NCBI GenBank assembly: GCA_030753015.1
Contig: JASMDC010000070.1
Span: 1 to 9,087, forward strand
Reading direction: 5' to 3'
DNA: 9,087 bases
DNA from: Candidatus Undinarchaeales archaeon
GTDB taxonomy: Archaea; SpSt-1190; JASMDC01
Below the pieces are notes generated by a model. The model saw only the letters and a list, made by a program, of their open reading frames with translations, was not told the origin of the DNA and did not search any database. The position numbers and the translations under genes were made by a program. This document shows positions 1-9,087 of this stretch, one piece after another; within the stretch, counting starts at the first letter, position 1; every line of letters begins with the position of its first letter.

Positions 1-847
1 TGACGATGTAAGGTTGGTCACGCCCTGGTTCGGTAAGGCATACGCCATTGGAGCAGCGCTGACCGTGGTAGCAGATGCCCCCTGGCTCGGCACCACGGAA
101 GCACATACAGTACGGATAGTCCACGTCGGTTGGCTCGCAGCGCTCCCCGTCCGCGATGCAGGGGATGTCCAGTCCCGCTGCAGTGAAGTGCCTGTTGGCG
201 CACAAGGGTGATACCGGTACCTTCGGTCCGATCACCGCGATCTCCCGTGTCCATACAGCGACACGGGTGTTCCCATGGAAGGATTCCACGACTATGCGGT
301 ATGGCCCGGGCGTCGTCGCCTCCGCTATGGGCAGCTTGGTGGTGAGGCACCCATGGTCCGGACCGCACCCGACCGTCCGTGTAGCGACCTTTGTCCCAAG
401 CCGGGTGGTGATGGTGTACGTGAACGAAACGAGCAGGCTCGTGGCGTCTATGTCCTCCGCGTTCGTGACGGCAACAGGGAGCTTCTCCCCGGCATGGACG
501 TTCTCGGGAACATCTACTGCGAGCGGGTGTTTTAGAGCGAGCTTGCCTTTGTATGTGGATGTCTCAGCATCGTTGATCATGGACATAAGGGAGAACTCCA
601 ACGTCTCCCGCGTACCGAGGAGATTGGGGATGAACACGTGTGCAGCTCTTGCATCGGACCCGGTCGTACAAGGCTCCTGCCAGAGCACTTCGTCCTTACC
701 GACCTCCTTGATCACCAGCATATCGCATGGCGGCTGATGTTCGATGGAGAGGTGATCGCCAGCGATCCGCACGTTGACCAATGTACCAGCGGCTAAGACG
801 AACAGGATGAACAGGATCGGTGCCAAGGAGCGTGCACGGATCAACAC
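1..847 (-). CDS. Cys-rich surface or secreted protein, 3' end outside the window
   Basis: The frame is open from a GTG at 847 to the left edge (282 residues), so the C-terminus is missing. Residues 5-25 form a hydrophobic signal peptide or anchor (SLAPILFILFVLAAG) with no lipobox. Residues about 108-205 look like a beta-sandwich of the CARDB/NEW3 kind (pattern HPLAVDVPENVHAGEKLPV, then alternating strands). Residues 216-270 are Cys-dense, with cysteines at 216, 230, 237, 247, 249, 259, 265 and 270, resembling a small disulfide-bonded knot; four more lie at 41, 60, 161 and 167. The GTG overlaps the stop of the upstream gene (GTGTTGA) and follows a good Shine-Dalgarno site, hence the start choice; the next codon, TTG, is the alternative. 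It is probably co-translated with the gene at 841-2694 and works outside the membrane. Function unknown. Confidence 0.8.
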   Translation of the reverse strand, partial: MLIRARSLAPILFILFVLAAGTLVNVRIAGDHLSIEHQPPCDMLVIKEVGKDEVLWQEPCTTGSDARAAHVFIPNLLGTRETLEFSLMSMINDAETSTYKGKLALKHPLAVDVPENVHAGEKLPVAVTNAEDIDATSLLVSFTYTITTRLGTKVATRTVGCGPDHGCLTTKLPIAEATTPGPYRIVVESFHGNTRVAVWTREIAVIGPKVPVSPLCANRHFTAAGLDIPCIADGERCEPTDVDYPYCMCFRGAEPGGICYHGQRCSNGVCLTEPGRDQPYIV

Positions 848-2694
848 GAGCAATCACCCTCCGCGATACGCGATACGTGCTCAGTCTCGCCGCCGGTCAC
901 CCGCACGACGAATGCTGGAAGGATGGGGATATCGACATCACGGTCATCGGCTTCCACTTCCATCAGAGTGGCGAAGCGCATGGTGTACTCATTGTATCCC
1001 TCCGCCACGACCAGGTACTTGCCCTCCACCATATCGGGAACGGTGAAGCGCGACTGCTCGTCCACGATCGCCTCGTGGCTGATCCTGTCACGCAGGTTGA
1101 CGAAGGTGAGGCGGACGTAGCTTGGCGGATCGTCCTCGGTGGGCGGAAGCGAACGTTCCGCGTTCACGGTGCGCACGCAGCTCCTCGGCTTACAGAACTC
1201 CTTTTCGACGGAGTACACCCTTCCGGAGAGGGTGAGGGAACGGCGCAGGAACATCTGCTCGCGCGTACGACGCTCTATATAGATGATAGCGCTCTCGGCC
1301 GCGAACCCGGAACCCTCGGGTGGTTCGACGAGGACTTCCGCTTCCTCGCACGGAGCGTTGGTCATGGTGACCACGCCCTGAGCGTCCGTCCGTTGCTCGA
1401 GCACGCACTCGTTGATGGTGACCTTGCTGCCGGGGATCGGATTCTTGTCATCGTCCTTGACGACGAGCTCCAAGTTGCACGAACCCGTGCAGATCGCGTC
1501 GTCTCTGACCGTGCCCTCGACGGCCACGCAATCGGGCATGCACGAACCACAGTCCTTGGCGAACGCATCGAGGTTGAAGCTGAAGGTCAGGGGTACAAGG
1601 GTGCTCCCGTCGGCCCCCATGAGCCGTGCTTCGCTATCCGTTATGTCAACCCGGACGGGGAACGAGAAGGCATATAGCACATCCCATCGACCCATCTGGA
1701 CAGCACCGAGCACGGATATCTTCTCTGCCCGTTGACGACAGACAGTGGGATCGGTCATGCACTCGTCAGCGCGTTCAGGGTTCAGGTCCTTGAAGGAGAA
1801 CTCGAAACCCGCTTCGCGCATCCCCAAAGAGATGCTCATCCCATCGATCCTCGGGAAGGTGCGATTGAACCGTTTCCTGGTATAGCCCTGCTCAAGGGAG
1901 ATGGTGGCATGGGCGTTGGTGACGACCTTGGGAAGCACCTGGGCGTACTCGACCACCTCGGGCTGCCATGTGGGATCGCAGGGACCACAGCAGTGGAACA
2001 GCCGCATCTGTGGCCGCCGGTCGTTCTCGAGGAAAACGTGCACGAGGCTCTGTTCGAACCCTCTGCGGACAAGGTGGTTCCCAACGAGCTCGCCCGCCAT
2101 GGCGTGAAGGAGCCCCAATCGGAGCGGCACCTCCACATCGATGGGGAACGGAAGGATCTCGTCCTCGGTCTGGACCGTGAGATCGGGAAGTGCCACCTTG
2201 ACAAAGGTCTCGCCAATATCAGCATTGGGCTGCGGGTAGGAAGGTCGGAATCCGTGCGTGCTACTGATGCTCCGAAAGGCGATCAGCAGACGCTTCTTCA
2301 CTTCTTTCTCCAGTTCCGAGGTCAGGCCCCCGGTGTCCCGTGCCAGCAGCCCGTGGGTACCGACCGCGCTGCCCTTGGGCCGCCAGTTGGTCTTATAGAA
2401 CTTGGTAGGCTGCCCCTTTTGGACAAGATAGGGGAGGTTCTCGAAGCTTTCAGGAGGAACTGTCTCGGCTCGAGAACCGCCATGGGCAGCGACCGTAGCG
2501 ACCGAGCGGTGCACGGCCTCGAGGAGGGCGTCCGACAGCACGCGTTGTACCATCTCTGCTTCGAGCTTCTTTGAGCCTGCCTCGATATCTTGGATATCGA
2601 GCTCCCGCTCGACGCCTCGGAGCTGGGTCATCCCCACCATCACGAAGATGACGGCGATGGCGATTCCAAAGAGAGCGAGCAGGCTCTGGTTCAT
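841..2694 (-). CDS. Large N-terminally anchored surface protein with Cys pairs and a carboxypeptidase-regulatory-like domain
   Basis: This 617-residue protein is not one I can name. Residues 4-22 (SLLALFGIAIAVIFVMVGM) form one membrane segment with no lipobox, followed by a polar helical stretch (23-70) and a long extracytoplasmic part. A core of mixed character covers about 85-375. Residues 405-490 resemble a carboxypeptidase-regulatory-like (CarboxypepD_reg/Cna-B) beta-sandwich, with the hallmark order NPIPGSKVTI then TDAQGVVTM. A second sandwich of similar style (522-600) contains FTVPDMVEGKYLVVAEG. Sixteen cysteines occur mostly in clusters (235/236/239, 312/319, 382/385/389, 402/406, 430/449, 501/506, 615/617), suggesting disulfides outside the cell. 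The architecture (membrane anchor, stalk, large ectodomain) recalls surface proteins of DPANN-type archaea; this is an impression, not a match. It lies 46 bases after the permease and overlaps the next gene by seven bases. Long plus-strand frames opposite it are artefacts of GC-rich codon use. Confidence 0.85.
   Translation of the reverse strand: MNQSLLALFGIAIAVIFVMVGMTQLRGVERELDIQDIEAGSKKLEAEMVQRVLSDALLEAVHRSVATVAAHGGSRAETVPPESFENLPYLVQKGQPTKFYKTNWRPKGSAVGTHGLLARDTGGLTSELEKEVKKRLLIAFRSISSTHGFRPSYPQPNADIGETFVKVALPDLTVQTEDEILPFPIDVEVPLRLGLLHAMAGELVGNHLVRRGFEQSLVHVFLENDRRPQMRLFHCCGPCDPTWQPEVVEYAQVLPKVVTNAHATISLEQGYTRKRFNRTFPRIDGMSISLGMREAGFEFSFKDLNPERADECMTDPTVCRQRAEKISVLGAVQMGRWDVLYAFSFPVRVDITDSEARLMGADGSTLVPLTFSFNLDAFAKDCGSCMPDCVAVEGTVRDDAICTGSCNLELVVKDDDKNPIPGSKVTINECVLEQRTDAQGVVTMTNAPCEEAEVLVEPPEGSGFAAESAIIYIERRTREQMFLRRSLTLSGRVYSVEKEFCKPRSCVRTVNAERSLPPTEDDPPSYVRLTFVNLRDRISHEAIVDEQSRFTVPDMVEGKYLVVAEGYNEYTMRFATLMEVEADDRDVDIPILPAFVVRVTGGETEHVSRIAEGDCSC
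853..862 (-). promoter_or_regulatory. Shine-Dalgarno site for the Cys-rich gene
   Basis: On the minus strand, GGAGGGTGAT lies inside the last codons of the upstream gene and ends five bases before the GTG at 847. It matches the 3' end of 16S rRNA well. It decides the GTG start for a gene with no ATG near its upstream boundary. Confidence 0.6.
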
Positions 2695-2740: not shown

Positions 2741-3868
2741 TCACTTGTTTGCCAGCGCTTCCAGGGGATCTAGGTCGCCGGCGCGCTTGGCGGGGATCGC
2801 TCCCGATATCGCAGCGATCAGGGTACCGATCAGGACGCTGAGGACAAGTATTCGGCCATCGATCACGGGAACGATGCCGAACCCGGTCCGTCGGATGAGC
2901 ATCACAACAAGAGAGCGAGAAAGCCCCACACCTACGACGCATCCGAGCACGCTGCCCAGCACACCGATGAAGAGACTCTCCAGGATGAACACCGAGACCA
3001 CCTCCAGACGTGTGAAACCCAGAGCTTTGAGGATCCCGATCTCTCGGGTCCGTTCGATGACAGTTATCATCATGGTATTGATCGTGGACATCGATGCGAT
3101 GATGATGGCGATCGCGGAGATGAGGAAGAACGCGTATCGGAAGCTCTCGGTGAGGGTGATGACCTCCTTCACTTGCGCTTCGAAGGAAACAGCATCATGG
3201 TTCCGTTCCTGCTCGATACGCTCGGCCACGGGACCCATGCTCTCGAGCCGGTCGACACGTACGAGCGCCAGGTCATAGGCCTTCTGAGGTGCCATCTCCA
3301 TGGGGAGGACCACGGCATAGTCGAAGGTTAGACTGCCGAGCACGAGCCCGCCCTTGCTCAGCACGCCACCGACATTGACAGGTATCTCGCGTCCGCCGAA
3401 TCGTGGAAGGGACAGGCGAAGGCGCGAACCGACGTCCAGTTCCGGATTGGCGACACGCAGACGTTCGAGAGCCTTGGCGCCCAAGAGCACTCCCTCCACC
3501 GTTCCTCGCTCGAGAGTGATCTCGTCTATCATCTCGTCCCGGTCGATGAACGCCGCTGTAACGAAGGTACCGCCCCCTCTGGAAGCCACATGGCCTGCAG
3601 TAGAGAGCTTACGGACGACACCCATGACCTCTGGATATGCCTCCAGAGCTGCTATATCGTCGTCCTCGAGGAAGCGGGCCTCGGAGTATCTGGGCGTGAC
3701 GATAATGCGGTTGAAGAAGCCTGACATGGCCTTCCCGAACTCTGCCTCCAGCCCGGTCGAGAAGGAGAAAAGGGCAACGAACTGGGCCACACCGATACCT
3801 ATGCCCATCACGGTGAGGAGTAATCGTGTCCGGTCCCTCATGATGTCAAGGAACGCGTACCGGAGCAT
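2741..3868 (-). CDS. ABC transporter permease, MacB/LolC (FtsX-like) type
   Basis: This 375-residue permease has the standard layout of the MacB/LolCE superfamily. It has an N-terminal membrane helix (about 17-37), a large extracytoplasmic MacB-PCD-type domain (38-243), then three helices (about 244-268, 293-318 and 339-360). Family signatures are clear: INTMMITVIERTREIGILKALG after helix 2 (the coupling region facing the ATPase), and a C-terminal PAKRAGDLDPLEAL. Length is normal for the family. In characterised members (MacB, LolCDE) the ATPase drives mechanical movement of the outer domain instead of moving solute through the membrane. Two copies are expected per transporter; only one permease gene is present, so a homodimer is likely. 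The start overlaps the stop of the adaptor gene by one base (TAATG), implying coupled translation. The substrate is unknown. Confidence 0.95.
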   Translation of the reverse strand: MLRYAFLDIMRDRTRLLLTVMGIGIGVAQFVALFSFSTGLEAEFGKAMSGFFNRIIVTPRYSEARFLEDDDIAALEAYPEVMGVVRKLSTAGHVASRGGGTFVTAAFIDRDEMIDEITLERGTVEGVLLGAKALERLRVANPELDVGSRLRLSLPRFGGREIPVNVGGVLSKGGLVLGSLTFDYAVVLPMEMAPQKAYDLALVRVDRLESMGPVAERIEQERNHDAVSFEAQVKEVITLTESFRYAFFLISAIAIIIASMSTINTMMITVIERTREIGILKALGFTRLEVVSVFILESLFIGVLGSVLGCVVGVGLSRSLVVMLIRRTGFGIVPVIDGRILVLSVLIGTLIAAISGAIPAKRAGDLDPLEALANK

Positions 3869-5448
3869 TATCGCTCACGCAGGATCGACTTGATCTCGAG
3901 GTGCACGGTACCGTCCTCTACTCTGACGACGGCCATCGTCGTTGCCGGGCCGTCCCGGACCCGACCGTCCGTCACACCTTTTACTGTGCCCGTGTCATCG
4001 GACACCTCGACAAGGCTGTGCTTCCCACGACTCCCTACACCCCGCACATGGTGACCCACGGCCACGAGCTTATCGGTGAAGCGCTTGGGATGAGCGATTA
4101 TGCTTTGGATCGGGATCCGCTCTACTTCGGATACGAGGTACTCAACGGTCTCCAGCTGTTCCACCTTGCGCTTCAACGAGTCCATCTCATGTTCCTCCTC
4201 CTCCTCAAGAAGCTCGAGCTGGTCCCGCTCAGCGGACAGTTCTCGTTCGAAGTCACGTAGCTTGCGCACGTACCCGAACGCCAACCATGCGACCACCAGG
4301 AAGGCCACGCCGGCAAGGAGCCCCGCCGACTCGAACGGACCGAGGAAGGTCTTTGTAGAACTTCCCGTTGACGGTTTCGTCCCTGTCGTGATGGGTGCCA
4401 CGGGCAGGGACGCCTGGACAGCCAGCACCTGGAAGTTATGAGCGAGCCGCTCCTCGTGCTCGTCACCGAACAGGTCACGGTAGCGCAGCATCGATTCCAC
4501 GGAGATGGTCGCGTTGGCCGTGTCGGCGTTGGGGACAACCTCGATGGTGACCTGTCGGCTATCCTGGGCCGAGATGATACCTAGATAAATCGTCTCCGGG
4601 ATCGGTTCTCCCGCTGCAGAACGGGTATCGATGCGTGCTGAGCGGACCGGCTGGTCGCCCAGGTTGAGGATGTCGAAGGTGATCGTCGCGAGCTCACCGG
4701 GGAGAGCATCGGTGGGGAGAACGAGATTAACTACTTCGAGCCTGAGGAGGGGCGCTCCGATAAGGCCCACGAGAAGTTCCTCGCTGCCCTCCGAGTGCAT
4801 AATCCTGACAGGCACCTCGACGAGACCTATGCTCTCAGGGTGGATATAGGTCTCGAAGGTGAGCGACCGACGGTCCCCTGCAGGGATGCTATCAAGTGTC
4901 CGGGTTTCACCATCGAGCACACGGTAGCCCGAGTCGCGTGCAATGCTCACCGTTACGTGATCGAGGTCACGAACCGAGCGGTTCCGTAGCTGAATGATGA
5001 GGTCGATGATCTTACCAGGTGACGCCGTTGTGGGATAGATGCCGGCAAGCTCGATATATTTCTCCCCGCTCCTCAGGCTGAAAGGAATGAGGACGGGAGG
5101 GGCCGCGTTCGCGGTCCCATCCGCTTCGGACCAGGTCAGCTCGGCCTTGAGCGAGCGTGTCTTCTCGGTACCCGGTACGACCGACACAATAATATCGAAG
5201 GTCTCGCCTGGCCCGACGGCGCCGACAACACCGTCATAGGAGCGGACTTCGATACCAGTTCCAGAGAGCGTGACCTCCACATCAAGGGCGGTCGCCTCAC
5301 CCGTATTCCGGCCACGCACGGTGACCATGCTCTGTCCGGGAGGGAGCACAGTAGGGTCTGCTCCGGTGATCGCCACCTCGGCGGAGACCACAGTGATCAT
5401 GAGCACCAGGGTGACGAGCGCCACCCATCGTAGTTCAGTCATCCTCAT
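3868..5448 (-). CDS. ABC-associated membrane protein: CARDB-like ectodomain, coiled coil and C-terminal OB-fold
   Basis: This 526-residue protein sits between ATPase and permease genes. Residues 8-23 form a signal peptide (VALVTLVLMITVVSA). Residues 24-345 read as three beta-sandwich repeats of the CARDB/NEW3 kind (COG1361-like): each has a phrase such as VLPPGQSMVTVRGRN, ASPGKIIDLIIQLRN or ALPGELATITFDILN. A Thr/Ser/Pro linker (351-368) leads to a membrane helix (about 374-394), a basic stop (RKLR), and a charged coiled coil (398-440) with an EEEEE run at 415-419. The last 80 residues look like an OB-fold (KLVAVGHHVRGVG, VEVSDDTGTVKGV, VVRVEDGTVHLEI). By the positive-inside rule the coiled coil and OB-fold are cytoplasmic. 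There is no cysteine. COG1361-type proteins next to archaeal MacB-like transporters are familiar, but the cytoplasmic OB-fold tail is not something I recognise. The ATG at 5448 follows a GGAGG site; the ATG at 5442 is the alternative. Confidence 0.85.
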   Translation of the reverse strand: MRMTELRWVALVTLVLMITVVSAEVAITGADPTVLPPGQSMVTVRGRNTGEATALDVEVTLSGTGIEVRSYDGVVGAVGPGETFDIIVSVVPGTEKTRSLKAELTWSEADGTANAAPPVLIPFSLRSGEKYIELAGIYPTTASPGKIIDLIIQLRNRSVRDLDHVTVSIARDSGYRVLDGETRTLDSIPAGDRRSLTFETYIHPESIGLVEVPVRIMHSEGSEELLVGLIGAPLLRLEVVNLVLPTDALPGELATITFDILNLGDQPVRSARIDTRSAAGEPIPETIYLGIISAQDSRQVTIEVVPNADTANATISVESMLRYRDLFGDEHEERLAHNFQVLAVQASLPVAPITTGTKPSTGSSTKTFLGPFESAGLLAGVAFLVVAWLAFGYVRKLRDFERELSAERDQLELLEEEEEHEMDSLKRKVEQLETVEYLVSEVERIPIQSIIAHPKRFTDKLVAVGHHVRGVGSRGKHSLVEVSDDTGTVKGVTDGRVRDGPATTMAVVRVEDGTVHLEIKSILRER

Positions 5449-6103
5449 CTACAAGCCTCCCATCTTCGATGACCACCCTTTTTAAACCCAACGACGCCAC
5501 GACGGGATCATGGCTCACCACGAGGAACGTGGAGCCCTTCTCGTTGATCTTCCTAAAAAGGTTCATGATCTCCAACGTCTTCTTCCGGTCCAGTGATCCC
5601 GTAGGCTCGTCGGCGAGTACGATGCCCGGATTGTTGATAAGTGCACGGGCCACGGCCACGCGTTGCTGCTCTCCCCCGCTCAACTGGTGAGGGTGGTTCG
5701 CTAAGCGAGCGCCCAGCCCCACCATTTCGAGCAGTTCACGACCACGCTCTTCCGTCGCCCCACGGGACGGGAGCATCACGTTCTCTAGAGCCGTGAGGTG
5801 AGGGAACAGGTTCGGCGACTGGAACACGAAACCGATACGCTTCCGTCTGAGGATGGCCAGCTGGTCCAGGTCCAGCTTCGCAAGGTCGCGACCCTCGACC
5901 GTGATGTTGCCCTTGGTCGGTCGTGTTAGACCGCTGACGAGATTGAGTAGGGTCGACTTACCGCTCCCCGACGGCCCCTCGATGACCATCAGGTCCCCCC
6001 TGTCGATAGAAAGTGACACGTTCCGGAGGACCCATATACGCTCGGTCCCGGTGACGTAGAGCTTCGATGCCCGCTCAATCGTGACGATGGGAGCGGTAGT
6101 CAT
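5435..6103 (-). CDS. ABC transporter ATPase, MacB/LolD type
   Basis: This 222-residue nucleotide-binding subunit has every expected motif: Walker A GPSGSGKST (43-51), Q-loop FQSPNLFPHLTALENV (Q95), signature LSGGEQQR (141-148), Walker B IVLADEP with catalytic E166, D-loop SLD (170-172) and H-loop H198. The aromatic after the first strand (KLY, residue 16) fits the A-loop, and the GSLDRKKTLEIMNLF stretch is typical of the MacB/LolD subgroup. It would hydrolyse ATP on the inner membrane face and drive the permease at 2741-3868. I start it at the ATG at 6103 (MTTAPIV), about 28 bases after a TATA-like element, which fits a leaderless message and the usual family N-terminus. A GTG at 6124 would add seven residues but lies too close to the TATA element. 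The stop overlaps the adaptor gene by 14 bases. Confidence 0.95.
   Translation of the reverse strand: MTTAPIVTIERASKLYVTGTERIWVLRNVSLSIDRGDLMVIEGPSGSGKSTLLNLVSGLTRPTKGNITVEGRDLAKLDLDQLAILRRKRIGFVFQSPNLFPHLTALENVMLPSRGATEERGRELLEMVGLGARLANHPHQLSGGEQQRVAVARALINNPGIVLADEPTGSLDRKKTLEIMNLFRKINEKGSTFLVVSHDPVVASLGLKRVVIEDGRLVDEDD
5456..5460 (-). promoter_or_regulatory. Shine-Dalgarno site for the adaptor gene
   Basis: The minus strand reads GGAGG seven bases before the ATG at 5448, inside the end of the ATPase gene. The strong site at this internal operon gene contrasts with the absence of such sites at promoter-proximal genes here. Confidence 0.65.
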
Positions 6104-6126
6104 CGTACATATTTCAGCCGTCACCC

Positions 6127-6140: not shown

Positions 6141-6175
6141 ACAGGGAGCGTCGTGAACGGTCGCACTGGCAAGCC

Positions 6176-6183
6176 TTTTAAAT
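6176..6183 (+). promoter_or_regulatory. Promoter (TATA box) of lipoprotein copy 1
   Basis: TTTTAAAT, preceded by a purine-rich AAG a few bases upstream (possible BRE), is centred about 25 bases before the ATG at 6205. The gene has no Shine-Dalgarno site, so a leaderless transcript is likely. The element lies about 50 bases from the opposing ABC promoter, so one regulator bound between them could affect both. Confidence 0.65.
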
Positions 6184-6204: not shown

Positions 6205-6693
6205 ATGGTCACACAAAGGAGCGCGATCCTCTTCAGTCTGCTTGCAGCTGTCTTCCTCGCAGGTTGTACGGGCGGCGTCGATAACGAGGTCTGCAAAGAC
6301 GTAGAGAGCTACAGTATCCCGATGGGCCGCATGGAGTCCGTCGAGGAGGCGTGCGACCATTGTGTGAACGTCCTGTCGATCTCGAGCCAGGAGTCCAAAT
6401 GCCTTGAGAAGCGCGACTTCATCTCTACCCTCAACGGTCGTAGGGACCTGGAGGCAGGTCAGATCTCGTACCCCAACCTCTATGCAATGGAGGACGAGTG
6501 GGAGGGGTGTGACGACCTCAAGGACGACGACAACAAGCTCAAGTGCGGTTGCTGCATCCTCAAAGGCAAGGACTACCAGTACGAACCCGGGCGCATGTGC
6601 TACCGCATCACCGGGAGCAGTTACTTCAAGGGCTCCGAAAAGACCGAGGACGTCCCGATCGACCAGTACTTCGAGGCCGGGCAGTGCAAGTAG
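6205..6693 (+). CDS. Lipoprotein with 10-Cys domain, paralog 1
   Basis: This 162-residue predicted lipoprotein has a hydrophobic signal (SAILFSLLAAVF) ending in the lipobox LAGC, so Cys21 would be lipidated and the rest anchored outside the membrane. The mature part is one domain with cysteines at 30, 50, 53, 66, 102, 114, 116, 117, 132 and 161. Shared marks with the three following copies are EVCKDVESYS, the Cx2C pair, a QxxxxCL, a YPxL...EDEW segment, an acidic stretch (DDLKDDDNK), KLKCGCC, GRxCY and a closing GQC. Ten cysteines in an extracytoplasmic protein suggest five disulfides; a CxCC metal site is a less likely alternative. I do not recognise the family. The ATG sits at the predicted transcription start, with no Shine-Dalgarno site. 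A 184-base gap separates it from copy 2. Confidence 0.85.
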   Translation: MVTQRSAILFSLLAAVFLAGCTGGVDNEVCKDVESYSIPMGRMESVEEACDHCVNVLSISSQESKCLEKRDFISTLNGRRDLEAGQISYPNLYAMEDEWEGCDDLKDDDNKLKCGCCILKGKDYQYEPGRMCYRITGSSYFKGSEKTEDVPIDQYFEAGQCK

Positions 6694-6845
6694 TACCAGC
6701 TAATACATTTTCATGAGATTGGGACATCAGGGAAGGGAAGTGGTCCCCGAGAAGACGCACTTCGAGAACGAGCATTGCGTCGATCGATCCCTGAAGGTCT
6801 GACACCCACGTCCGGTGACGACACATCGTCCCCCCAAGAGAAACA
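6694..6845. other. Non-coding spacer between lipoprotein copies 1 and 2
   Basis: No credible gene or RNA is visible. Just after the stop there is a short A/T-rich stretch (ACATTTTCAT) that could help end transcription of copy 1, but no hairpin supports it. The right end leads into the promoter of copy 2. Frames crossing this region on either strand have no plausible start or composition. Confidence 0.5.
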
Positions 6846-6853
6846 CTTTTATA
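6846..6853 (+). promoter_or_regulatory. Promoter (TATA box) of lipoprotein copies 2-4
   Basis: CTTTTATA, preceded by a purine-rich AGAGAAACA that may act as BRE, is centred about 28 bases before the ATG at 6878. This matches the geometry of the copy 1 promoter and points again to a leaderless message. It would drive copies 2, 3 and 4, which have no gaps large enough for promoters of their own. Confidence 0.65.
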
Positions 6854-6877
6854 CGAGCTGACCCCCGTAACAGCCAC

Positions 6878-7363
6878 ATGGGACATCCCCGAGCGACATC
6901 TGCCCTTGTCGTTCTTGCCGTTCTCGTGGCCGCTGGTTGTACAGGGGGTGTCGACAACGAGGTCTGCAAGGACGTCGAGAGCTACAGCACAGCCATGGGC
7001 AGAATGGAGTCCGTTGAGGGCGCTTGTGACGATTGCGTCACGGCCCTGAGCGTTTCCGGCCAGCAGGAGCGATGCCTGCAGAAGCAGAACTTCATAAGCA
7101 CCTGGAACGGACGGAAGGATTTGGAAGCTGGACAGCACACCTATCCGGTGCTCTTCAATCGTGACGACGAATGGAGCGAGTGCACGTCCCTTGACCAGGA
7201 TAACGCTAAGCTCTACTGCGGTTGCTGCCTCCTCCTGGGCAAGGAATACAAGTTCAATGAGGCGACCTGCCAGAAGTTGGTGGGTACTGCGTACCTGAAG
7301 TCCATGCAGAAGTGGGAGATCGTCGACCAGAGCGAGTATCTCAAGGACGGCCAGTGCATCTGA
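6878..7363 (+). CDS. Lipoprotein with 10-Cys domain, paralog 2
   Basis: A 161-residue protein aligning almost without gaps with copy 1. The signal VVLAVLVAAGC places the lipidated Cys at 21; domain cysteines are at 30, 50, 53, 66, 102, 114, 116, 117, 131 and 160. Residues 21-37 are identical to copy 1, and AMGRMESVEGACDDC and KDLEAGQ follow closely, so these two are the closest pair. The GRxCY motif is changed to EATCQ, while the Cys is kept. The frame extends upstream to 6815, but that start would remove the signal peptide from the N-terminus and lies before the TATA box, so the ATG at 6878 is chosen. Its stop is five bases before copy 3. Function unknown; probably a surface-exposed disulfide-bonded domain. 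Confidence 0.85.
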   Translation: MGHPRATSALVVLAVLVAAGCTGGVDNEVCKDVESYSTAMGRMESVEGACDDCVTALSVSGQQERCLQKQNFISTWNGRKDLEAGQHTYPVLFNRDDEWSECTSLDQDNAKLYCGCCLLLGKEYKFNEATCQKLVGTAYLKSMQKWEIVDQSEYLKDGQCI

Positions 7364-7368
7364 TCAGG

Positions 7369-7878
7369 ATGATGGATCAGTCTCAAAGGACCGCCCTACT
7401 GGCGGTTGCAGCGGTCTTCCTGGCCGCAGGATGCACGTCCATCGAGAACGAGGTCTGCAAGGACCGAGAGAGCTTCAGCCTCGACTTCGGTGGCAAGATC
7501 GTCTCGGTAGAGGATGCCTGTGACGAGTGCGTGACGGTCCTCACCGTATCGGGACAATCCTCAAGGTGCCTTGAGACGCGCCGCACGATGACCGCCTTCA
7601 AGGAGTCCGGGGGGAGTGTGCAGGTGCCGAGCAAGCACAAGTACTACCCCCACCTCCTTGAACGTGAGGACGACTGGGACGACTGTTCCTCGATCGGCGA
7701 TAACGACGAGCGTCTCAAATGCGGGTGTTGCCTGCTCCAGGGTACACGTCACAAGTACGAGTCCGGACGTGGATGCTACAATATAGTCTCAACGGAGCGG
7801 CGGGCCGGCGGGTTCGGCAAGACGATCAACACCAAGGATGTGCCTCAAAGTTCATACTACTATAGTGGAAGGTGCAGA
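7369..7878 (+). CDS. Lipoprotein with 10-Cys domain, paralog 3
   Basis: A 170-residue copy (the frame plus stop ends at 7881). The signal TALLAVAAVFLAAGC gives lipidated Cys22; domain cysteines are at 30, 51, 54, 67, 106, 118, 120, 121, 136 and 169. It is the most divergent of the short copies: extra residues lie near 79-90 (between the fourth and fifth domain Cys) and near 144-151 (RRAGGFGK), both between conserved cysteines, as expected of surface loops. Two adjacent ATGs (7369 and 7372) are possible starts; no strong Shine-Dalgarno site is seen, so translation is probably coupled to copy 2, whose stop is five bases upstream. The frame is open further upstream, but that would bury the signal peptide. 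Function unknown. Confidence 0.85.
7867..7874 (+). promoter_or_regulatory. Shine-Dalgarno site for lipoprotein copy 4
   Basis: GGAAGGTG ends eight bases before the ATG at 7883 and lies within the last codons of copy 3. It fixes the start of copy 4 at 7883, directly before its signal peptide, in place of upstream in-frame ATGs. Confidence 0.6.
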
Positions 7879-7882
7879 TAGG

Positions 7883-8704
7883 ATGGGAAAGGACGAAATC
7901 ATCATCATGTTAGTAGTTCTTGCGTCGATCATCGCGGGCGGTTGTGTCACAGGAAGGCTCCTGTCCGATGTCAAATACATCGAATGCGGTGACAAGGAGA
8001 GCTACAGCATAGCGCTTGGGAAGTCCATTTCAGTGTCAAAGTCCTGCGACTACTGTTTCGGCGCCCTTATGCAGTCGGACCAGCAAACGGAGTGCTTCAA
8101 GACCAGCGGCAGCATCCCGACACTCAGCGGATCGAAAGATGTTCCCGCGGGCCAAAAATACTATCAACACCTTTCCAATCGTGAAGAGGAGTGGAGCGTG
8201 TGCGACATCGATGATGATGATGCGCAGCTCAAGTGCGGTTGTTGTCTCATTGCGAGCCGGGACCACCGGTTCGAGGTGGGGCGAGGATGCTACCAGCTCA
8301 CGTCCACAGGATATATCAAAGGGACCGAGAGGACCGCAGATGTCCCGGAATCAGCATACTTCGACCAAGGGCGCTGCAAGGGCATCGCGGTCGGTAAGAA
8401 GTTGTACAAGACCACGACGACAGCTGGCAGTGAACTGAAGCGCGCGATCAACAGCGACTTCACCCACATACCCGCCCACGTGGCCGCGGCCCAGGTGGCG
8501 AAGTACCTCCAAGTGGACCAGAACCACCATGATGGTAACTGGACGTCATGGAGCGAGAGCGGTGAGTACCCGCCGGACAGCCGAGCGCTCCAAGCTGTGA
8601 AGTTCATCGAGGCCAATTACCAAAAGTCGGCCATGCCCCATCATATGCTCGCTACCGACCTGGCACGTGTCGTCAAGGCATGGGAAGAGGGTATGCTCAA
8701 CTAA
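7883..8704 (+). CDS. Lipoprotein with 10-Cys domain plus C-terminal extension, paralog 4
   Basis: A 273-residue, two-part protein. The signal (EIIIMLVVLASIIAGGC) gives lipidated Cys21, with a slightly weak lipobox (AGGC). The family domain has cysteines at 35, 55, 58, 71, 107, 118, 120, 121, 136 and 165; spacing from the lipid Cys to the first domain Cys is longer than in the other copies (14 versus 8-9). After GRCKG at 163-167 comes a unique extension (about 166-273) with no cysteine. It appears mostly helical (SELKRAINSDF, HVAAAQVAKYL, DSRALQAVKFIEANY, LATDLARVVKAWEE) around a His/Trp-rich loop (QNHHDGNWTSW). I do not recognise this part; a peptidoglycan-like or protein-binding role cannot be judged from sequence alone. 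It is the last gene of the cluster, one base after copy 3's stop. Confidence 0.85.
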   Translation: MGKDEIIIMLVVLASIIAGGCVTGRLLSDVKYIECGDKESYSIALGKSISVSKSCDYCFGALMQSDQQTECFKTSGSIPTLSGSKDVPAGQKYYQHLSNREEEWSVCDIDDDDAQLKCGCCLIASRDHRFEVGRGCYQLTSTGYIKGTERTADVPESAYFDQGRCKGIAVGKKLYKTTTTAGSELKRAINSDFTHIPAHVAAAQVAKYLQVDQNHHDGNWTSWSESGEYPPDSRALQAVKFIEANYQKSAMPHHMLATDLARVVKAWEEGMLN

Positions 8705-8814: not shown

Positions 8815-9087
8815 CTACATGAGACCTAAGAGCTTCTTGATCTGGTCCAAGAAGATCCAGATGAGACCCTTCGAGTAGTCCTCACCGAAGTAGTCACAGA
8901 TGTTCTTGTAGTTGTAAAACAGGATGAAGAAGATGATAAGGATCGCAATCGTGGCGATCATCACCTTGTCATGAAGGATGGCATCAAGGAGGTCCTCCTC
9001 CTCGCCCCAGTCTTCCTCTTCTTCCTCTTCTTCCTCTTCTTCCTCTTCTTCCTCTTCTTCCTCTTCTTCCTCTTCTTCCTCTTCTTC
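8815..9087 (-). CDS. Tail-anchored membrane protein with poly-glutamate tract, 5' end outside the window
   Basis: The last 90 codons of a gene that enters from the right edge. The visible protein begins with 25 uninterrupted glutamates, then DWGEEEDLLDAILHDK, one membrane segment (about VMIATIAILIIFFILFYNY), and a short amphipathic tail ending in WIFLDQIKKLLGLM. With the membrane helix close to the C-terminus and an acidic region before it, it is probably a tail-anchored protein or the end of a larger membrane protein. The side on which the acidic tract lies is uncertain. The N-terminal part and any domain there are outside the window, so function cannot be assigned. Only this frame through the repeat joins the sensible downstream sequence; the other two give Lys/Arg-rich or Arg/Gly repeats. 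Confidence 0.75.
   Translation of the reverse strand, partial: EEEEEEEEEEEEEEEEEEEEEEEEEDWGEEEDLLDAILHDKVMIATIAILIIFFILFYNYKNICDYFGEDYSKGLIWIFLDQIKKLLGLM
9013..9087 (-). repeat. 9-base tandem repeat encoding poly-glutamate
   Basis: The unit TTCCTCTTC (GAA/GAG codons on the minus strand) is repeated eight full times without any mismatch, plus three bases to the window edge. Because nine is a multiple of three, changes in copy number lengthen or shorten the glutamate run without breaking the frame. The total copy number is unknown because the window ends inside the array. Confidence 0.9.

Follow-up and report, generated by a model that had tools for sequence, protein, structure and literature searches.

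The stretch of DNA analysed here (the window) is contig C85, 9,087 bases long, from an archaeal genome of 3.85 Mb in 117 contigs that is 98.9% complete. It carries a tandem array of four lipoprotein genes, W1 to W4, and the following features have been located in it.

2-2694, minus strand: two exported cysteine-rich proteins to the left of the ABC operon, the first of which ends in a knottin-like cysteine cluster
2741..6124, minus strand: divergent operon neighbouring the array, encoding an ABC ATPase (LolD/MacB-like), a CARDB membrane protein and an FtsX/MacB-like permease
6174..6183, plus strand: archaeal-type TATA-box-like ccttttaaat, identified by reading the sequence, ~27 nt upstream of the W1 start codon
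6205..6693, plus strand: W1 lipoprotein, 162 aa, lipobox LAGC (Cys21), domain cysteines 30, 50, 53, 66, 102, 114, 116, 117, 132 and 161
6845..6853, plus strand: archaeal-type TATA-box-like cttttatac, identified in the same way, ~29 nt upstream of the W2 start codon
6878..7363, plus strand: W2 lipoprotein, 161 aa, lipobox AAGC, ten domain cysteines, start ATG at 6878
7369..7881, plus strand: W3 lipoprotein, 170 aa, lipobox AAGC, ten domain cysteines, beginning 5 nt past the W2 stop
7883..8704, plus strand: W4 lipoprotein, 273 aa, lipobox AGGC, ten domain cysteines, C-terminal extension, beginning 1 nt past the W3 stop
8405..8701, plus strand: C-terminal two-repeat module of W4, also present in a tandem gene pair of contig C45 (170 aa each), where the repeat order is permuted
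8815-9087, minus strand: small membrane protein with a poly-glutamate run (a GAA/GAG repeat) up to the contig end

W2, W3 and W4 look like one operon read as a single transcript, because the gaps between them are only 5 nt and 1 nt, while W1 seems to have a promoter of its own. For W2, a longer open reading frame starting with GTG at 6815 is unnecessary. The GAA/GAG repeat at the contig end likely caused the assembly break.

All four genes encode a signal peptide and a lipobox cysteine, followed by a domain of ~135 residues. The cysteine order in this domain is C..CxxC..C..C..CxCC..C..C (4/4), as the preliminary description of this DNA had reported. Its observation that length differences are confined to the segments between cysteines also holds. 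Its claim of one domain per gene holds for W1 to W3, whereas W4 adds the two-repeat module in the ~107 residues that follow its last cysteine. The shared motifs that it listed are present in a looser form: VCKDxESYS is found, from W1 to W4, as VCKDVESYS, VCKDVESYS, VCKDRESFS and ECGDKESYS, EDEW as EDEW, DDEW, EDDW and EEEW, and LKCGCC reads LYCGCC in W2.

Extent of the family and search for relatives

The array had been described as a four-gene tandem family. The array is real, and the family extends beyond it. A profile built from the four window domains finds, well beyond chance expectation, three dispersed copies in the same genome, on contigs C24 (E = 6e-35), C31 (6e-24) and C67 (3e-18), so that the family comprises seven copies, four in tandem and three elsewhere. 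Each dispersed copy has the lipobox LAGC, and the pattern [LVIA][ASG][GA]C is satisfied by all seven members. The ten domain cysteines, in the same order, and the lipobox cysteine are invariant (7/7). The remaining residues and the lengths of the loops differ between members, and the identity among the mature domains is 28–57%. The C24 copy has two additional cysteines beside the lipobox cysteine and an insertion ahead of the ninth domain cysteine. The host genome is itself large, its 3.85 Mb comparing with 0.6–1.1 Mb in nine other genomes of the same class and phylum; its contamination is given as 5%, and a search of the assembly gave no archaeal 16S match.

Profile searches of ~540 archaeal genomes have found no further relative. 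These searches covered 60 and then 393 other genomes (252 genera including that of the host), with 156 genomes of another archaeal phylum that partly overlap the 393. The matches obtained there were inspected individually and consist only of lipoprotein signal peptides, stop-containing frames and short chance matches. The nine other genomes of the host phylum have no copy. Pattern scans of GTDB contigs, viral contigs, phages and plasmids also returned nothing, but these scans look for short conserved peptides, which limits them to close relatives and makes them miss distant ones, and bacteria are covered solely by them.

No family match has been obtained in Pfam, NCBIfam or PHROG, counting as a match any score over the curated cut-off, or E < 0.001 for models that lack one; the PDB sequences gave no match either. 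The best sub-threshold matches have E = 0.047 (Pfam), 0.044 (NCBIfam) and 0.013 (PHROG) and each concern only one or two members, and the Pfam and NCBIfam scores displayed with a cut-off fall far under it. The PADLOC models give no anti-phage defence match for the family, and a literature search on such lipoproteins found nothing relevant. The family had been called unrecognised before any search was run. That assessment stands, and the result named as refuting it, a strong profile match to a known domain family, did not appear. Within the genomes and libraries searched, the family so far appears private to this genome.

Predicted fold and state of the cysteines

The AlphaFold2 model of W1, calculated from the seven-row alignment, has a mean pLDDT of 83.7 and a pTM of 0.74, and the domain beyond the signal peptide is mostly above pLDDT 90. 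It is an alpha+beta model with two strands, a helix at 47–60, a short helix at 63–67, two further strands, helices at 96–103 and 108–118, and three final strands. The W4 model repeats this order of strands and helices with a pLDDT of ~90 or more across most of the domain. Foldseek searches of the domain model against the PDB and BFVD (viral models) give no match at E < 0.001, and VIA-align gives no row at Z >= 2. With the W4 model, the aligned rows covered only the low-confidence C-terminal part (RFC-type helical rows, Z <= 5). The absence of fold matches is compatible with a new fold.

The best sequence match to a known structure, the C-type lectin-like domain of CD302 (2nan), is doubtful since its E of 0.05–0.1 is not significant, it involves one chain only, and the predicted secondary structure differs. 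In the alignment, W1 helix 108–118 coincides with a strand region of the lectin topology, and no lectin is found in the Foldseek list.

The ten cysteines could brace the domain as disulfides or bind a metal. Their joint retention in every member suits five disulfides. This arrangement is favoured over a metal site by circumstantial evidence from the proteins and the genome, namely the predicted export, the even number of cysteines, the lack of a CxxCH motif and of an invariant histidine, and the presence of exported DsbA-like proteins. The residue after CxxC is V, V, V, F, M, T and Y in the seven members, so the c-type cytochrome motif is absent, and no histidine is invariant among them. The genome encodes three exported DsbA-like proteins with CPFC motifs: a lipobox protein, and two in which a transmembrane segment precedes tandem DsbA domains.

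L030:1234-2157, minus strand: DsbA-like lipoprotein with a cysteine-rich tail
L031:124-2001, minus strand: membrane-anchored protein with two DsbA-like domains and CPFC motifs
L032:217-2502, plus strand: membrane-anchored protein with two DsbA-like domains and CPFC motifs

VKOR has not been found in the genome, which counts against the disulfide reading. In its favour, in a 450-kb sample of heuristic gene calls, cysteine makes up 3.1% of residues in proteins with one N-terminal membrane segment, a class that includes two of the window lipoproteins, versus 1.4% in soluble proteins. Five unrelated lipoproteins in this sample have only one to three cysteines beyond the lipobox cysteine. Elsewhere in the genome, an exported open reading frame of 1,431 residues (L044:1-4295, minus strand) has 81 cysteines past residue 60.

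Alternatively, CxxC and CxCC could belong to a metal or redox centre, in which case these proteins would be extracytoplasmic metal-binding or electron-transfer lipoproteins. The two motifs lie within predicted W1 helices, 47–60 and 108–118, and an RnfB-like iron-sulfur protein (L036:346-1260, named by its sequence) suggests membrane redox chemistry in the host. Set against the missing histidine and heme motif, the cysteines retained as a full set of ten and the DsbA-like proteins, this leaves a metal or redox centre unlikely. In thioredoxin and DsbA the CxxC lies at a helix start; in the W1 model it sits inside helix 47–60, and the thioredoxin fold is absent among the Foldseek rows.

Neighbouring genes, fused parts and divergence of the copies

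The divergent ABC operon directly adjoins the array, and the lipoproteins could be its substrates or accessory subunits. LolD is the best-scoring model for the ATPase (212 bits, under the NCBIfam cut-off of 308) and LolCE for the permease (58 bits, under the cut-off of 362). However, no such ABC system is present among the genes read around the three dispersed copies, and a paralogous ABC operon on contig C21 (L034) has no ten-cysteine lipoprotein in the stretch read, which together make this partnership quite improbable. The cysteine-rich pair to the left of the operon likewise has a paralogue (L038:1947-6532), with no ten-cysteine gene in the stretch read. Across the genes read around all seven copies, no conserved neighbour has been seen.

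Two of the copies, W4 and the one on C31, carry C-terminal parts that are unrelated to each other, and the remaining five of the seven have no such partner. The proteins concerned outside the window are the following.

L009:7667-9235 (contig C31): ten-cysteine lipoprotein of 522 residues, with ~350 residues C-terminal to the domain
L065:10008-10520 and L065:10582-11094 (contig C45): a tandem pair of genes of 170 residues each, whose products have a membrane-like hydrophobic stretch and the two-repeat module

The W4 module consists of two halves that the C45 genes carry in reverse order, with best local matches of 55% and 48% identity. The relationship between the two halves is clear in the C45 proteins and less so inside W4. 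The C31 part has a lone cysteine, Cys319, and a GGDH sequence further downstream, and on this reading of its residues it may be a cysteine hydrolase. The searches run have found no relatives of it beyond two weak archaeal matches (E ~0.003), to a helicase-like protein and an unrelated protein, which we attribute to chance. Finding one domain joined to two unrelated C-terminal parts is what one would expect if its role were to anchor or target other domains.

The C31 fusion and its lone cysteine also raise the idea of an inhibitor, propeptide or immunity domain that restrains or targets an enzyme domain. Many small cysteine-rich exported domains in other organisms are protease inhibitors, which counts in favour of this idea. 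Yet the C31 part has no relatives and its enzyme nature has been read off its sequence, and most copies have no C-terminal partner to restrain; we therefore find such a role decidedly unlikely.

The preliminary description had suggested, as an inference from the tandem amplification, diversification in binding partners, for example, or in response to other cells or viruses. For every pair with a usable estimate, dN (0.43–0.85) is lower than dS (0.85 to saturated), so rapid diversification is unsupported. The copies are old or fast-evolving and constrained overall, although with dS near saturation this is a weak test for single sites or loops. The tandem array is best read as the product of an old duplication. 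A fast-evolving surface family that recognises other cells or viruses, as the variable loops of the tandem copies and their differing C-terminal additions might suggest, is very unlikely given the old divergence, the excess of dS over dN and the lack of any relative in the defence models (PADLOC) or among viral contigs and phages.

Proposed function and comparison with known systems

The best-supported statement is structural: the family consists of a putatively lipid-anchored, probably disulfide-braced extracytoplasmic domain that is at times joined to other parts. Our preferred reading goes further, and we give it about an even chance. It holds that these are lineage-private exported lipoproteins whose ten-cysteine alpha+beta domain, probably with five disulfides, acts outside the cytoplasm as a stable module for binding or adhesion. 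The protein would be exported through Sec and lipidated at the lipobox cysteine. The five disulfides would brace the domain, and the lipid-anchored domain would be displayed on the cell surface, where it might bind a ligand or partner. This last step is the least certain, and the term binding module is used by analogy alone because there is no homologue of known function, conserved neighbour or ligand hint. More tentatively, and as a possibility that we rate clearly lower, the ten-cysteine domain would be a new fold born in this archaeal lineage. The lineage would use it as its general binding module outside the cytoplasm, having duplicated it to seven copies and fused it with different effector parts.

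The analysis adds a well-defined domain family whose seven divergent members suffice for a confident structure prediction. Were its structure solved, it would show whether archaea can evolve disulfide-rich domains de novo, and what is displayed on the surface of an archaeon whose genome is unusually large for its class.

Among known systems, the haloarchaeal lipobox lipoproteins have an N-terminal signal peptide ending in a lipobox and cysteine (PMC2945643). The proteins described here are like archaeal lipobox lipoproteins in their signal peptide, lipobox and terminal cysteine, but share no common domain with them, and the ten-cysteine domain matches no described family. The C-type lectin-like domain is also extracellular and of similar length, and gives the best, insignificant, sequence match; the ten-cysteine domain differs from it in that a helix is predicted at a position occupied by strands in the lectin. 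Lineage-specific, cysteine-rich paralogous surface families are a familiar class, with tandem and dispersed copies, a disulfide-type cysteine pattern and variable loops. The present family is archaeal, has a lipobox and shows no sequence relationship to any family in the libraries searched, whereas its tandem and dispersed copies, cysteine pattern and variable loops are the same as in that class. It is a genuine new family with no relative found, and its general kind, that of lineage-specific cysteine-rich surface proteins, is familiar.
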